Shown here: positions 8,137 to 14,757 of the stretch, in pieces
Layout of the letters: each line of letters opens with the position of its first letter
Numbering within the stretch: position 1 is the first letter of the stretch
Assembly: GCA_028408365.1 (NCBI GenBank)
Contig: JAOOLD010000004.1
Span: forward strand, 1-64,000
Reading direction: 5' to 3'
DNA: 64,000 bases
Source: Bacteroidota bacterium
Lineage (GTDB): Bacteria; Bacteroidota; Bacteroidia; Flavobacteriales; BACL11
Made by a program: the position numbers and the translations under genes
The notes under the pieces: model-generated
What the model saw: only the letters and a program-made list of their open reading frames with translations
Told to the model about the DNA's origin: nothing
The model's database searches: none

Positions 8137-8544
8137 ATGAGTTTGTCAGAGCCAAACACTCACTTTAGTGTTTTTATTTCAGGTATAATTTTTGGAATAA
8201 TTTTTTTTCAATCTTTTATTTCTGCTCCTTTAATCTTTAAACATATTGATAAAAAGAACTCTAGTACCTACATAAGGAAAGTCTTTCCAAGAATATTTTT
8301 AATCATACCTCTTTTGTCAATAATTTCATTACTAGTTTCTTATTTTCAATCAAAATTTTATTCAACAGATTTATTGATTGTTTGCCTTACTAGCATATTT
8401 CTTCCATTAATTTGTTATTTGTTAATTCCTTCCACCAATCAAGCCACTGATAGTGGTAACTCAAAAAAATTTAAGATACTACATACGGTAAGTGTTCTTT
8501 TAACATTTATAGTTTTTTTAATTAATTTATATTGGATATTCTAA
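8137..8544 (+). CDS. Small DUF4149/TMEM205-like integral membrane protein
   Basis: The 135-aa protein is strongly hydrophobic, with about four predicted transmembrane segments (residues about 10-32, 50-70, 78-96 and 112-134). The first segment and following loop (FFQSFISAPLIFKHID and KVFPRIF) resemble the DUF4149 family, whose role is unknown. It begins six nt after the CotH gene and its stop overlaps the start of the nitroreductase gene (TAATG). Assignment is by pattern only. Confidence 0.6.
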   Translation: MSLSEPNTHFSVFISGIIFGIIFFQSFISAPLIFKHIDKKNSSTYIRKVFPRIFLIIPLLSIISLLVSYFQSKFYSTDLLIVCLTSIFLPLICYLLIPSTNQATDSGNSKKFKILHTVSVLLTFIVFLINLYWIF

Positions 8545-9101
8545 TGCTAGATAAAAATGTCATTCAAATTATAAAATCAAGAAAATCTATCTACCCTAGT
8601 CAATTTTCAGGAAAAATTTTAGAGAATAGTATAATATCAGAGCTTATTGATATTTCTAATTATGCACCAAGTCATAAAATGACTCAACCATGGGTTTACA
8701 GAGTTTTTACTTCAAAAACAAAAGATAAATTGTTAAATCATATTTTAAATATTAACTATGAAAACTTCAGAAAACACCAAGTTGATAAAATGAAAGTAAA
8801 ATTTCAACTCACTAGTCATATTATCTGTATCTGTATGAGAAGAGATAAATATAAATCTGTTCCTGAATGGGAAGAGGTAGCAGCAACATCTATGGCCGTT
8901 CAAAACCTTTGGATAGCTATGGTTAATTCAAAAGTAGGAGGCTACTGGAGTACCCCAAAGTATTCCAAAGATTTATCTTCTTTTTTGAAACTTAATGAAG
9001 GTGAAAGGTGTTTAGGACTTTTTTATTTGGGATATGTGGAGAACGAGATTTCAAAAAACTTACTTAGAAAAGATATTTCTAAGGATACAAAATGGCAATA
9101 A
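8544..9101 (+). CDS. Nitroreductase-family flavoprotein
   Basis: The ATG at 8544 shares its A with the upstream stop, so translation is probably coupled. A TTG at 8532 would extend the protein but is less likely. The 185-aa product starts IIKSRKSIYPSQF, typical of the FMN-binding N-terminus. It has the SNYAPSHKMTQPW substrate/FMN segment, then an 'AATSMAVQNLWIAM' helix and an 'LGLFYLGYVE' strand typical of nitroreductases. These enzymes reduce quinones, nitro compounds or other acceptors with NAD(P)H. The true substrate is unknown. The length fits the family. Confidence 0.85.
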   Translation: MLDKNVIQIIKSRKSIYPSQFSGKILENSIISELIDISNYAPSHKMTQPWVYRVFTSKTKDKLLNHILNINYENFRKHQVDKMKVKFQLTSHIICICMRRDKYKSVPEWEEVAATSMAVQNLWIAMVNSKVGGYWSTPKYSKDLSSFLKLNEGERCLGLFYLGYVENEISKNLLRKDISKDTKWQ

Positions 9102-9894: not shown

Positions 9895-10072
9895 GCGGTG
9901 AGCAAGGCACCCTAATCAGTTCTAGCGAAAGTTTTCAACTAATTTAACATTTCCCTAAATAATACAGTTTTAAGTAAGCCCTTATTACTAATAATTTCAA
10001 ACACTTAGATTACTAAAGAGGAGCAAGTATGTATGTAATTATGTACATATAAAAACATAAACTACAACTATA
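9895..10072. other. Intergenic region between the terminator and the amt promoter
   Basis: No ORF with coding character was seen. The stretch begins with 16 nt (9894-9909) that match the 3' end of the tRNA-Ser gene at 14669-14684 at 14 positions, but no further tRNA structure follows. The rest is AT-rich with no clear hairpin. Confidence 0.4.
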
Positions 10073-10102
10073 TAGAGTCAAAGTAAAAATTGTTAAGTTT
10101 GA
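10073..10102 (+). promoter_or_regulatory. Promoter-like element of amt, nearly identical to one upstream of the gene at 13790
   Basis: The 30-nt segment contains TAAGTTTG at 10094-10101, an exact -7 consensus. It is identical at 28 of 30 positions to 13739-13768. The -33 region here reads TATA rather than TTTG. The start codon is 34 nt downstream of the box. The upstream conserved part (TAGAGT, then AGTAAAAATTGT) could be a shared regulator site or an extended promoter. Confidence 0.6.
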
Positions 10103-10135
10103 TAAATAATAAAATAATTTAATAAAAAATATTAG

Positions 10136-11455
10136 ATGCTATTACATAACAGAAAGACGTTTTTTATAATACTTACATTAATTGTTTTAATCATAACGTT
10201 TTTTTCAAATCAAAAATCGAATTCTGATCTATTGATAGATATAAATAATGCTGACACTGCTTGGATGATTGTTGCAAGTGCTCTTGTATTATTAATGACC
10301 CCAGGTTTAGCTTTTTTTTACGGTGGTATGGTGAGTAAAAAAAATGTGATTTCTACTATGCTTCAAAGCTTTATTGCATTAGGAGTTATTTCTTTAGTTT
10401 GGGTATTATTCGGTTTTAGTCTTGCATTTGGTGACTCTATAAACGGATGGGGAATTATTGGTAATCCAACACAATTTGCTATTCTTGATAACCTTAATTC
10501 TCGTAATAGTAATATTCCATATTTATTATTTGCTCTTTTTCAACTAAAATTTGCAATAATTACACCTGCAATCATCACTGGTAGTTTTGCCGAGAGAATT
10601 CGATTTAGGAGTTACTTATTGTTTATGATATTTTTCTGCGTCTTTATATATACTCCGCTTGCACATATGACTTGGTCATCTGGAGGATTGTTTGCTAATT
10701 TAGGTGATATTGTTGGTGGTTCCTTCAAAGGATTACACGTTCTTGATTTTGCAGGAGGAACAGTTGTGCATATGAGTGCAGGTTTGGCTGCTCTTGCTGG
10801 CGCACTATATTTAGGTAAAAGAAGAAAGGAAAAAACAGAACCTGCTAATATACCATACGTTATTCTTGGAACTGGACTATTGTGGTTTGGTTGGTTTGGT
10901 TTCAATGCTGGCTCTGCACTAGCTGCTAATTATGATGCTGTTATTGCTTTTGCTAATACAAATATCGCTTCAGCAAGCTCTATGATAACCTGGGTACTTT
11001 TCGATAGATTTTTAAATAAAAAAATATCAGCTGTTGGAGCTTGTATAGGTGCTATTGTTGGACTTGTTGCTATAACTCCCGCAGCAGGTTATGTTACTAT
11101 TAATCATTCAATTGTCATTGGCTTTATTACAGCTCTAGTTTGTAATTTATCTATAATTCGTATTAAAAAATCAAAAAAACTTGATGACACGCTTGATGTG
11201 TTTGCTTGTCACGGCATTGGTGGTATCTGCGGTATGATTTTAACAGCTATTTTTGCTAAAGAGGTTGGTTTAATTTATGGAGAATCTAAGACTTTAGTTC
11301 TACACATTGGTGCATCAATTTTTGTGATATTATTTGCATTCTTCGGCTCATTATTTATATATAAAATTGTTGATTATATTCTTCCAGTTCGTGTAAGAGA
11401 AGATCAGGAAGAAAGAGGTTTAGATCTTTCACAACACGGCGAAGAGATAAACTAA
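10136..11455 (+). CDS. amt: Ammonium transporter, Amt family
   Basis: The 439-aa protein has an N-terminal hydrophobic segment (residues 8-24) that may be a signal peptide, then the usual eleven membrane helices. Diagnostic features include TPGLAFFYGGMVSKKN in the second helix, an 'LDFAGGTVVHMSAG' segment with the first pore His, and ACHGIGGICGM with the second pore His. The C-terminal tail (VREDQEERGLDLSQHGEE) is the cytoplasmic region that usually contacts GlnK. It imports ammonium at the inner membrane. No glnK/glnB gene follows, which is unusual but not rare in Flavobacteriia. Glutamate dehydrogenase is encoded 10 kb away. The gene stands alone behind its own promoter. Confidence 0.95.
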   Translation: MLLHNRKTFFIILTLIVLIITFFSNQKSNSDLLIDINNADTAWMIVASALVLLMTPGLAFFYGGMVSKKNVISTMLQSFIALGVISLVWVLFGFSLAFGDSINGWGIIGNPTQFAILDNLNSRNSNIPYLLFALFQLKFAIITPAIITGSFAERIRFRSYLLFMIFFCVFIYTPLAHMTWSSGGLFANLGDIVGGSFKGLHVLDFAGGTVVHMSAGLAALAGALYLGKRRKEKTEPANIPYVILGTGLLWFGWFGFNAGSALAANYDAVIAFANTNIASASSMITWVLFDRFLNKKISAVGACIGAIVGLVAITPAAGYVTINHSIVIGFITALVCNLSIIRIKKSKKLDDTLDVFACHGIGGICGMILTAIFAKEVGLIYGESKTLVLHIGASIFVILFAFFGSLFIYKIVDYILPVRVREDQEERGLDLSQHGEEIN

Positions 11456-11665
11456 GTAAACACCACATACTAAAAACTAATAAAGAAATTAAACTCGCAT
11501 TCAAAAGTAAAAATAAAATTGGTTTCAATCTAAAAATAGTAAACTCTGACTTGAGCAAAATTGAGGATTTTTAACTTTTATTAAACTAAAATAGTTGTCA
11601 ATCTAGCTCAATCTTTTAAAAATTTTAAGCTAAATTTATAGTGAATTTTAAATTTAATATTTATA

Positions 11666-13222
11666 GTGAAAATTGCTAATAAAATTAATATCACTGACTA
11701 TTTGGTCGGAGGAGAGTTAAAAGAATGGAATGGAGATAAATCTGAAGTTTTTTCTGTAATCAAAAATGAAAATAATTTGCCTACTCATTTAGGTACTGTT
11801 CCAAGTTTAGATGAAGATGCTGCAATTTCTGCAATTGAAGAAGCTGATAAAGCTTATAATCGTGGCCGAGGGAAATGGCCTACAATGAGTGTGCAAAATC
11901 GAATAGATTGTATGCAGAAATTTGTAGTTGAAATGGAGAAATATAGACATGAAATCTCTAAATTAATAATGTGGGAAATTTGTAAGTCTAAAAAAGATGC
12001 ATATAAAGAATTTGATAGAACAATAGATTATATCAAAGATACAATTGAAGCCTGTAAAGACTTTGATCGCAAGGGAGCACGATTTATAAAAGAAGATGAT
12101 ATTTTTGCTCATATTAGAAGAGGACCAATTGGTATAGTCTTCTGTCTAGGCCCTTATAATTACCCTTTAAACGAGACATTCTGTTTACTAATACCAGCGC
12201 TAATAATGGGTAATGCTGCTATTTTAAAACCTGCAAAATACGGAGTCTTGTTCTTTAACTATTTATTGAAGGCTTTCAAGGAGTGTTTTCCCGCAGGTGT
12301 TGTTAACATTATTTTTGGAAGAGGTCGAGCGATTGGCCCTCCGATTATGAAAACAGGAAAAGTTGATATCCTTGCTTTAATTGGCCATAGCTCATCTGCA
12401 GTAGCGTTGCAAGACTATCATTCAGATAAAAACAGACTTAGATTAGTTTTAGGACTTGAAGCTAAAAATCCAGCAATAATTTTGAAAGATGCCAATTTAA
12501 AACTTGCAGTAGATGAGTGTTTAAAAGGAAGTTTATCATACAACGGACAGCGGTGTACTGCAATAAAAGTCATATACGTACATAAAAATGTAATAGATAA
12601 TTTTTTGAAGTCTTTTAATGAAAAAGTTGATGAACTAATAATTAAGAACCCAAACCAAGAAGATGCCTTTATCACTCCTTTACCAGATCCTAAGCAACCT
12701 AAGTATCTAAAAGAACTTATTGATGATGCATGCCTAAAAGGAGCTAATATTGTTAATAAAAAGGGTGGTGAAATTGGAGATAATTTTGTTTTTCCAACAG
12801 TTCTTTTTCCAGTCAAAAATGACATGAGAATTTTTCATGAGGAGCAATTTGGTCCTATTATACCGATCATTGAATTTGATGATATAAATATGCCTTTACG
12901 TGATATGTCCGACTCTAATTATGGACAGCAAGTATCTGTTTTTGGAGAAAATAGCAAAGAATTAGGCCCTTTGGTTGATGCTTTAGTCAATTTAGTTTGT
13001 CGAGTCAATTTAAATAGTTCTTGTCAAAGAGGTCCTGATGTGTTTCCATTTACAGGAAGAAAAAATTCAGCTGTAAGTACCTTGAGCATATATGATGCCT
13101 TAAGATCATTTTCCATACGAACTTTTGTAGCTTCAAAAGATAATCGAATCAACAATGATTTAATTAGTGATATGACAAAAACAAATAAAAGTGCATTTAT
13201 TTCTACTGATTATTTACTGTAG
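11666..13222 (+). CDS. gapN: NADP-dependent glyceraldehyde-3-phosphate dehydrogenase-like aldehyde dehydrogenase (GapN type)
   Basis: The only suitable start is a GTG at 11666. The 518-aa product is a full-length aldehyde dehydrogenase. It has the oxyanion-hole Asn in GPYNYPLNE (162-170), general base Glu265 in [10 protein letters not shown], and catalytic Cys297 in NGQRCTAIK. The cofactor region shows LKPAK (187-191). The length, 'GPYNYPLNE' motif and '[21 protein letters not shown]' region are most like the non-phosphorylating GapN branch. That branch oxidises glyceraldehyde-3-phosphate directly to 3-phosphoglycerate and makes NADPH. A different aldehyde substrate cannot be excluded. It stands alone between amt and a tRNA-like gene. 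Confidence 0.8.
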
Positions 13223-13373
13223 AAGGGTTCATTTAGATAGGGTCAAATGTAAATTATGGCAGCTATTAAACTCAAAAATTATTTTTAGAAACTGAAAGTC
13301 ATTATGATATACAAGAACAAGTGATTTCATTTGTAATGAAAACAAAAATCACAAAAAGTATAGTTTAAATTAG
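13223..13373. other. Non-coding stretch with inverted repeat downstream of gapN
   Basis: No coding frame was seen. GTGATTT at 13321-13327 pairs with AAATCAC at 13346-13352, with a further CAT/ATG pairing inside. The hairpin lies between the gapN stop and the tRNA-like gene and could terminate transcription from either side. No strong T tract follows it. Confidence 0.35.
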
Positions 13374-13531
13374 CTGTACGGGAAGGATTCGAACCTTCAT
13401 GTTGAGGTTAGTCAAAAAACAAAAAACGCCTTGCAAGACTTAGTGGTCAACCCTCTAAATATTTTATGATTTATACCTTTGTCAACGCCCCCGAGACAGG
13501 AGGGTATGTCTGCCAATTCCATCACCGTACA
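13374..13531 (-). tRNA. Unusual class II tRNA-like gene: Leu-type body, GTC anticodon, 89-nt variable region
   Basis: Read on the minus strand, the ends form a perfect 7-bp acceptor stem (TGTACGG at 13531-13525 with CCGTACA at 13381-13375) and leave a G discriminator at 13374. A TG link precedes a 3-bp D-stem (ATG/CAT) with a Leu-like loop, GAATTGGCAGA, including the conserved GG. The anticodon stem is CCCTC/GGGGG with loop CTGTCTC, so the anticodon is GTC (13497-13495). This loop differs from a usual Asp loop (CTGTCAC) only at position 37. The T-arm is canonical: GAAGG, TTCGAAT, CCTTC. Between anticodon stem and T-stem lie 89 nt (13399-13487). They are closed by GTTGA/TCAAC and contain the palindrome CTTGCAAG. 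CCA is not encoded. It could be a true divergent tRNA, a pseudogene or a tRNA-like regulatory RNA. Confidence 0.6.
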
Positions 13532-13734
13532 TTTAATTTATATAAATATAATACATAAAATTTAATTGATGTTTTAATAATTAAGAAGTTTGAAGAATTC
13601 TATGACACATGCTATTAGCAAAAGTTTTGATTGAAGAATGACTTGCTTAAATTTATGTTTATTTCATTTAAAAATTATATATTTTTATGATTATTAATAG
13701 CATAAGTTCAGTACATAGTTAAGAAGAATTCAAA
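13532..13734. other. AT-rich intergenic region upstream of the lipoprotein gene
   Basis: No ORF or strong hairpin is visible. The first 30 nt would hold the promoter of the minus-strand tRNA-like gene. They contain TATATTTA, close to but not matching the -7 consensus. Confidence 0.3.
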
Positions 13735-13768
13735 TTTGTAGAGTTATAGTAAAAATTGTTAAGTTTGA
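13735..13768 (+). promoter_or_regulatory. Predicted promoter TTTG-N21-TAAGTTTG for the lipoprotein gene
   Basis: TTTG at 13735-13738 lies 21 nt before TAAGTTTG at 13760-13767. This is a full match to the Bacteroidota -33/-7 promoter pattern. The ATG is 22 nt after the -7 box. Positions 13739-13768 match the amt element at 10073-10102 at 28 of 30 bases. Confidence 0.7.
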
Positions 13769-13789
13769 ATATTACTAAAAAAGATACAT

Positions 13790-14650
13790 ATGAAAAATCT
13801 ACAAATACTTTTACTTTTTTTAATGGTAATTAGTTGTAAAACTCCAACTTTTTATCAATTAATTGAACTTGAATCTGAAACAATAAAAGATGGATATTCA
13901 TCAAATGAGGATATTGAATTAAATTTAAATTTCTGGTCAAATAATGGTAATACAGAATACTTTATTAAGAATATATCCCAAAATACAATCTATATTAAAT
14001 TTGATGAATGTCAAATAATAAAGAATGGATTAGTACATGACCTTTTTGACAATTCAGAATACACTTCATCAAAAGGATCAATTGTTGGAAGAAGAGCAAA
14101 AAGAATTGTGCAATATGGCGCAGCTATTTCTCAATCTGACGTTTACAGCAATAATTTGAATACTACTTTTGGAGCAGCAGCAACAATTTTATCTGCCGGA
14201 TTAAATGCATCTGTATCTTCGTCTCAAGCCGCTTCAAGATCAACATCATTTTCAAGTTCCGTTACTACAAAGGATAAAAGAGTTCTTGCTATTCATCCCT
14301 CAAGCAGCAGGAAAATCCATGGAATAAATTTACAGAGTGGAATTTTTCGAGACTGTGACGTTGATAATAAGATTTCAAGTAAAAAATCAAATATAGAAAA
14401 TGGACTTACTTTCGATAAAAATGATACCCCTCTAAAGGTTAAAATTATTGTTAGATACTCAAACGATGAAAATTTTAATGATATTAAAACTTATGAATTA
14501 GAAACATACGTTTTTCGTTTTTCAAATTGGAACTCAAAAGCATTTGTTAAGCGAGAAAAGTTCCAAGAGTGTGATGATGATATTTCTTATTACTACAAAA
14601 ATGTTACTGATTGGTATTCTCCAATGAGATATTACGTGAAATATCGATAA
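13790..14650 (+). CDS. Lipoprotein of unknown function with Ser/Ala-rich central segment
   Basis: I do not recognise the family. The 286-aa product has a lipoprotein signal (LLLFLMVISCKTP, Cys16). Residues about 25-100 look beta-rich, with 'YFIKNISQNTIYIKFDECQIIKNG' resembling an immunoglobulin-like or DUF-type sheet. A small-residue segment at about 118-165 (AAATILSAGLNASVSSSQAA and the serines after it) may be membrane-active or flexible. The C-terminal part has 'VKIIVRYSNDENFND' and YVFRFSNWNSKAF strands. The two Cys in FRDCD and FQECDDD could pair. The gene lies alone between two tRNA genes and shares its promoter element with amt, so co-regulation with nitrogen supply is possible but unproven. 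Confidence 0.75.
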   Translation: MKNLQILLLFLMVISCKTPTFYQLIELESETIKDGYSSNEDIELNLNFWSNNGNTEYFIKNISQNTIYIKFDECQIIKNGLVHDLFDNSEYTSSKGSIVGRRAKRIVQYGAAISQSDVYSNNLNTTFGAAATILSAGLNASVSSSQAASRSTSFSSSVTTKDKRVLAIHPSSSRKIHGINLQSGIFRDCDVDNKISSKKSNIENGLTFDKNDTPLKVKIIVRYSNDENFNDIKTYELETYVFRFSNWNSKAFVKREKFQECDDDISYYYKNVTDWYSPMRYYVKYR

Positions 14651-14670
14651 TAATTTTAAATTTTATTGTG

Positions 14671-14757
14671 CGGTGAGGAAGGGATTCGAACCCCCGAAAC
14701 AGTTTCCCGTTTACACGCTTTCCAAGCGTGCGCCTTAAGCCGCTCGGCCACCTCACC
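14671..14757 (-). tRNA. tRNA-Ser (anticodon GGA)
   Basis: On the minus strand a 7-bp acceptor stem (GGTGAGG at 14757-14751 with CCTCACC at 14678-14672) is followed by the Ser-type D-arm GGCCGAGCGGCTTAAGGC. The anticodon stem is CACGC/GCGTG with loop TTGGAAA, which reads UCC and UCU serine codons. A long variable arm (about ACGGGAAACTGTTT) and the T-arm with TTCGAAT complete a class II tRNA. The discriminator is G at 14671 and CCA is not encoded. The 5' end directly adjoins the tatD stop codon, so the tRNA is probably processed from the tatD transcript. Confidence 0.93.

Follow-up and report, generated by a model that had tools for sequence, protein, structure and literature searches.

The allo-tRNAs are non-canonical class II tRNA-like genes, often with a GUC anticodon, that were found in metagenomes; they have an 8/4 or 9/3 branch and stem from Clostridia, Proteobacteria, and Acidobacteria (Mukai et al., 2017; reviewed in PMC7609411). 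The RNA family discussed here resembles them in the former respects, but the acceptor/T branch is 7/5 in every aligned member, the hosts are Bacteroidota, and a large conserved variable domain is present. In tmRNA, tRNA-like ends are likewise combined with an extra domain. However, the family member described below has complete D and anticodon arms, no tag reading frame was seen in it, and a tmRNA covariance model gave no match at its position. ROOL and GOLLD are large, structured, phage-linked RNAs that form homo-oligomers (PMC12286853). The phage link is shared with the family, and the homo-oligomers invite a comparison with the palindromic loops of its viral members (see below), but ROOL and GOLLD are not tRNA-shaped and are far larger, and the family has no Rfam match. 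YrlA and bacterial Y RNA were considered as well, owing to a UUGACC motif, and were compared by a general Rfam scan only.

The locus was found in the genome of a Bacteroidota bacterium (GCA_028408365.1), in a window that comprises the first 64,000 nt of contig JAOOLD010000004.1. On the minus strand, from 13531 (position 1) to 13374 (G73) and followed by an encoded C74 at 13373, lies a complete tRNA fold. From 5' to 3', it consists of TGTACGG, TG, ATG-GAATTGGCAGA-CAT, A, CCCTC-CTGTCTC-GGGGG, C, the 86 nt of GTTGA...TCAAC, AT, GAAGG-TTCGAAT-CCTTC, CCGTACA, G, and C. The acceptor stem is perfect over 7 bp, the D stem has 3 bp, the anticodon stem 5 bp with a single U-G pair, and the T stem 5 bp; the anticodon-like loop is CUGUCUC. 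The parts are located as follows:

13373..13532, minus strand: the whole tRNA-like RNA gene, from position -1 to the encoded C74; matches covariance model R2 with 132.6 bits (E 9.8e-38)
13525..13531, minus strand: 5' strand of the acceptor stem, TGTACGG; pairs perfectly with 13375-13381, and the pairs covary throughout the family
13375..13381, minus strand: 3' strand of the acceptor stem, CCGTACA; pairing partner of 13525-13531
13373..13374, minus strand: G73 and the encoded C74, without CA; GC in 230 of 233 members
13506..13522, minus strand: D arm with the 3-bp stem ATG/CAT and the loop GAATTGGCAGA with the conserved GG; the stem covaries (ATG/CAT, GTG/CAC, GCG/CGC)
13488..13504, minus strand: anticodon arm CCCTC-CTGTCTC-GGGGG, with GUC at 13497-13495; the stem covaries
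13401..13486, minus strand: extended variable domain of 86 nt, closed by GTTGA/TCAAC; helices PV1-PV3 show compensatory changes
13401..13486 plus 13487 and 13399-13400, minus strand: the 89-nt variable region (positions 44-48, i.e., 1 + 86 + 2 nt)
13443..13450, minus strand: TTGACCAC motif in the optional distal module (GGGTTGACCAC at 13453-13443); present in all pattern-selected members, partly by ascertainment
13430..13437, minus strand: palindrome CTTGCAAG in the distal loop; palindromes of at least 6 nt are enriched in viral members
13382..13398, minus strand: T arm GAAGG-TTCGAAT-CCTTC; the stem covaries

The element thus has the complete cloverleaf, the T loop and the D-loop GG of a canonical bacterial tRNA, but it was not called by ARAGORN, and the Rfam tRNA model matched its T arm only, with 14 bits against a cut-off of 29. 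The single-sequence folding energy had a z of -1.6. Model R2 was built from 46 homologues with the window element left out and therefore constitutes an independent test. It scored the element at 132.6 bits, the next match in the window being a real tRNA-Ser with 37 bits; this score from a model trained without the element excludes chance. The first-pass annotation had described a real tRNA-like gene whose stems are intact, with a D loop of the Leu type, a loop like that of tRNA-Asp apart from an odd U37, and a variable region of 89 nt. All these features are present on the minus strand, the length being exact, and its argument against simple decay is borne out by the R2 match and by the covarying family.

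A sensitive search of phage records detected a homologue in LR756504.1, an uncultured huge phage of 636 kb, where 95% of the element can be aligned at 68.5% identity. The two sequences have the same CUGUCUC loop, and their acceptor, anticodon and T stems differ by compensating changes. Among viral contigs, pattern scans produced more than 120 matches, of which 118 distinct viral members were left once look-alikes had been removed. A single scan over 85,000 prokaryotic species returned at least 119 matches, nearly all in Bacteroidota chromosomes; two or three matches outside this phylum look like chance. The combined set comprises 233 distinct sequences, of which 115 come from chromosomes and 118 from viruses, including one extreme outlier in the tree (L185) that is probably a false member. 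Chromosomal members were found in Pedobacter, Chitinophaga, Spirosoma, and Saprospiraceae. With a family model, 44 of the 247 genomes of the class were positive at E <= 1e-15, and a single weak match among them (65 bits) is uncertain, as long members score above 84 bits and ordinary class II tRNAs at most 61. Isolated phages and plasmids gave no further family matches.

When the window and ten member loci were searched with the 4227 families of Rfam 15, none exceeded its gathering score at the family RNA, and no description of the family was found in open-access papers. Apparently, it is a large, undescribed set of tRNA-shaped RNAs in Bacteroidota and their phages, best filed as a new family among the non-canonical tRNAs and tRNA-like RNAs. 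It has hundreds of members, a conserved chromosomal context, and phage copies, yet Rfam offers no model for it, and ARAGORN fails to detect it.

The structure and its conservation can be read directly from the alignments. RNAalifold predicted 34 pairs from 57 sequences (56 viral ones and the window element), 28 of them with double compensatory changes. In a further alignment (A3), which also includes the window element, 97.7% of the cells of a 40-pair structure were paired, and double changes were found in 29 of the 40 pairs; none of 500 shuffles, and no slid version of the structure, came near. The sequences thus establish as conserved a class II, Leu-type body (7/5 branch, 3-bp D stem, D-loop GG, and T loop) with a GUC loop and G73. 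The first-pass annotation had proposed to look for homologues with conserved stems and compensating changes, and these were encountered many times over. That this family exists and has a function is almost certain. If the element were a decaying tRNA-Leu pseudogene that had acquired a random insertion, or if an intron were spliced from its variable region, this would agree with the lack of a match by tRNA finders and with the absence of the element from 51 other genomes searched in the host's family. However, this explanation is contradicted by the family-wide covariation and is hardly credible: the insert is homologous and covaries in phages as well as in many genera, no ordinary spliced version was encountered, and the size varies around the same core.

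The variable domain measures ~40 to 120 nt across the family and has conserved helices of its own. Its core consists of PV1, PV2, an internal loop (GAUAAA opposite CUAA), and PV3, on which long members carry a distal module, GGRUUGACCAC (R is G or A). The base pair flanking this module covaries, with 78% paired vs. 43% in shuffled sequences. Since short members of 110-125 nt, which were found by the model, lack the module, it is optional. The apparent invariance of TTGACCAC is partly due to ascertainment, as this motif was in the search patterns. Intramolecular pairing between the GUC loop and the GAC in TTGACCAC was rejected as a family-wide rule: it is invariant in long members, but short ones keep GUC without the module. 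Covariation between position 33 and a purine in the internal loop was rejected as well, as it reflects two viral clades and does not hold in chromosomal members, e.g., L269.

Palindromes of at least 6 nt were found in 45 of 52 viral distal loops, as against 28% of shuffled loops, whereas chromosomal members (14 of 47) did not differ from shuffled ones. The viral palindromes, seen in members such as L073, L077, and L084 and usually 6-10 nt long (GCGCGC, GCATGC, GCCGGC, among others), suggest that these RNAs could form kissing dimers; with the enrichment limited to viral members, a universal kissing dimer was rejected. The D loop of many viral members (L073, L092, L106, L139, and others) contains an extra small hairpin between GAAA and GG, which differs in sequence with pairing kept.

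With class II tRNA-Leu, the element shares the 3-bp D stem, the D loop, and the unpaired bases on either side of the variable stem (one before, two after), but it differs by G73 instead of A73, by the GUC loop, and by its 89-nt variable region as compared to about 15 nt. Charging by LeuRS, as envisaged in the first-pass annotation, appears unlikely from the sequences, because nearly all members have G73, an antideterminant for LeuRS, in place of A73. The same annotation had considered SerRS. The large arm and G73 would suit this enzyme, but position 72 is A, and two bases separate the variable stem from the T stem, as in tRNA-Leu, instead of the single base in the window genome's tRNA-Ser, which makes charging by SerRS less likely. 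This spacing also bears on the possibility that the RNA is comparable to an allo-tRNA that is charged by SerRS and places serine at Asp codons. GUC is among the commonest anticodons of the 8/4 allo-tRNAs (PMC7609411), and G73 together with a long variable arm would be fitting. Nevertheless, with its 7/5 branch, two-base spacing, and A72 where tRNA-Ser has C72, the family is very unlikely to function in this way.

The identity bases that are conserved are those of tRNA-Asp itself, which is at odds with the earlier suggestion that Asp codons are misread. Asp identity depends on five strong determinants, i.e., G73, G34, U35, C36, and C38, with a minor role for G2-C71 (PMC9976931). By sequence, the family carries all five, as well as G2-C71. 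GUC at positions 34-36 is constant in the pattern-based set, and position 38 is C in 221 of the 233 members and A in 12; one short copy found by the model (L407) has the loop CTTTCTC with anticodon TTC. Unlike tRNA-Asp, the family has a class II body with a long variable domain, U37, C33 in many members, U1-A72 (in 56 of 57 sequences) where AspRS features include G1-C72, and a variable position 10 where they include G10. AspRS, like other class II synthetases, approaches the tRNA from the side of the variable loop, where a long arm might clash.

The gene end, discriminator plus C74, is that of ordinary tRNAs. Ordinary tRNA genes encode C74 in 25 of 25 cases in the window genome (L051-L070) and in 703 of 733 cases in the viral loci, as a rule without CA; a full CCA is encoded in 1 and 84 genes, respectively. 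The RNA would thus be processed by RNase P and receive its CCA like a tRNA.

Viral members are located within tRNA arrays, and all 228 neighbouring tRNAs within 2 kb are on the same strand, which likewise favours maturation as a tRNA. Capsid protein Gp23 was detected in 12 of 19 viral records tested, confirming that these derive from tailed phages; terminase PF17289, taken as another phage marker, was found in none of the 19. In the matched Gp23 region of G668 and G673 (loci L146 and L211), there are two and one in-frame TAA codons, respectively, possibly in an insert between the matched pieces. A phage tmRNA gene is present near approximately one third of the viral loci (L084, L100, L109-L112, L129, L131, and others). 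Three viral loci (L101, L120:9624-9768, and L138:457-606) contain a different tRNA-like gene, in which a D arm of the normal class I type is combined with a long insert; TTGACCAC occurs in this insert, too.

Of the 23 larger phage arrays, 14 also contain an ordinary tRNA-Asp(GUC), and the idea that the family RNA replaces tRNA-Asp there was rejected on this ground. These ordinary genes also speak against the misreading of Asp codons and against a functional Asp elongator whose variable arm is oversized, employed, e.g., during stress or phage infection. Such a role would account for the complete tRNA body, the Asp anticodon and determinants, the tRNA-type 3' end, and the neighbours in the arrays. 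However, canonical elongators have U33 and a purine at position 37, whereas position 37 is U in 231 of the 233 members, and position 33 is U in 151 and C in 80; the window copy has U33 but U37. A decoding role is therefore improbable, and the function of the family RNA is probably different from ordinary decoding. Phage tRNA arrays would then hold non-decoding members.

In 76 of the 115 chromosomal loci, a gene of the Lrp/AsnC family is oriented divergently from the RNA at a distance of about 170 nt (118-392 nt). This synteny is common to Chitinophagaceae, Sphingobacteriaceae, and Cytophagales, and the neighbour was confirmed with Pfam at one locus. The other 39 loci lack it, some of them owing to contig ends, and no family RNA was found at the loci of flavobacterial AsnC orthologues. 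Of 98 upstream regions, 51 contain TAnnTTTG, the consensus of the Bacteroidota -7 box, at a distance of ~35-41 nt from the RNA, where 3.6 would be expected. Lrp/AsnC regulators are amino-acid-sensing proteins. Antisense pairing of the RNA with the start of the AsnC mRNA was rejected, as the motifs were at chance level. Tandem copies are common in the chromosomes, often one long and one short.

Considering the Asp determinants, the neighbouring regulator, and the conserved variable domain together, the RNA may be a dedicated tRNA mimic or aminoacyl-RNA. AspRS would charge it, as we infer from the presence of G34, U35, C36, C38, and G73, but it would not be used as an elongator, since U37 is near-invariant, C33 occurs in a third of the members, and an ordinary tRNA-Asp is present alongside. 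Its variable domain could serve as a docking site for a putative partner, its level in chromosomal hosts probably depends on the Lrp/AsnC regulator encoded divergently, and phages would carry spare copies. The chances are about even that it is a non-elongator, tRNA-like RNA of Asp identity with a partner-binding variable domain and a level tied to the AsnC regulator, aspartylation and purpose being the weak steps. More tentatively, many Bacteroidota could possess a long-conserved, unrecognised aminoacyl-RNA gene that encodes an Asp-identity tRNA mimic with a regulatory domain, is controlled by Lrp/AsnC, functions in signalling or translation control and not in elongation, and has been copied by large phages. 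Should the RNA carry an amino acid without decoding, it would represent an aminoacyl-RNA that occurs naturally outside translation elongation, and since it is found in genera that can be cultivated, such as Pedobacter and Chitinophaga, the question is directly testable.

The alternative raised in the first-pass annotation was a non-translating tRNA-like regulator, which the RNA may be. In an uncharged version, the GUC loop, G73, and the elbow would bind a tRNA-handling protein or nuclease, with the RNA acting as a decoy, sponge or scaffold that never carries aspartate. U37 and C33, which argue against decoding, would be explained, phage copies could act as decoys for host defences that cut tRNAs, and the conserved variable domain resembles a binding platform. 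However, a decoy role in phages leaves unexplained the chromosomal copies, which have a promoter of their own and are syntenic with AsnC, as well as the retention of the whole set of Asp determinants, including C38 and G73. An uncharged mimic is rather less likely than the aspartylated, AsnC-linked RNA favoured above.

The window copy has a particular context:

9895..14682, no strand assigned: island with the element; the site is empty in sister species G037, and the content was assigned with Pfam
14670..14757, minus strand: tRNA-Ser(GGA), whose 3' end is the integration site, according to the tRNA call and the comparison with the empty site

The 4.8-kb island contains genes for an ammonium transporter, an aldehyde dehydrogenase and a lipoprotein-like protein besides the element, and it is flanked at 9895 and 14670 by a 13-nt direct repeat with one mismatch, GCGGTGAG[C/G]AAGG. 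The 3' end of tRNA-Ser(GGA) serves as a hotspot for integration (L048, L049, L050): the site is empty in G037, G036 has a different insert of 5.6 kb, and in G034 there is an element that encodes a phage integrase, a replication protein similar to ORF2/G2P, and an HTH_17 protein. A model search of 51 other genomes of the host's family revealed no copy, the best matches being ordinary tRNA-Leu-like genes of 85 nt, and a plain DNA search of the same genomes gave tRNA-Leu D arms and chance matches only. An AsnC orthologue is absent from the host. In a tree of which few branches are resolved, the family members nearest to the window copy by path are viral. A phage or island origin of this copy is likely, because the island lies at the end of a tRNA-Ser gene, the site is empty in G037, and the nearest members are viral; the copy would have reached this metagenome-assembled genome on the mobile island. 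At 8137-9101, the window has DUF4149 and nitroreductase genes, which are missing from the same place in the sister species G036 and G037.
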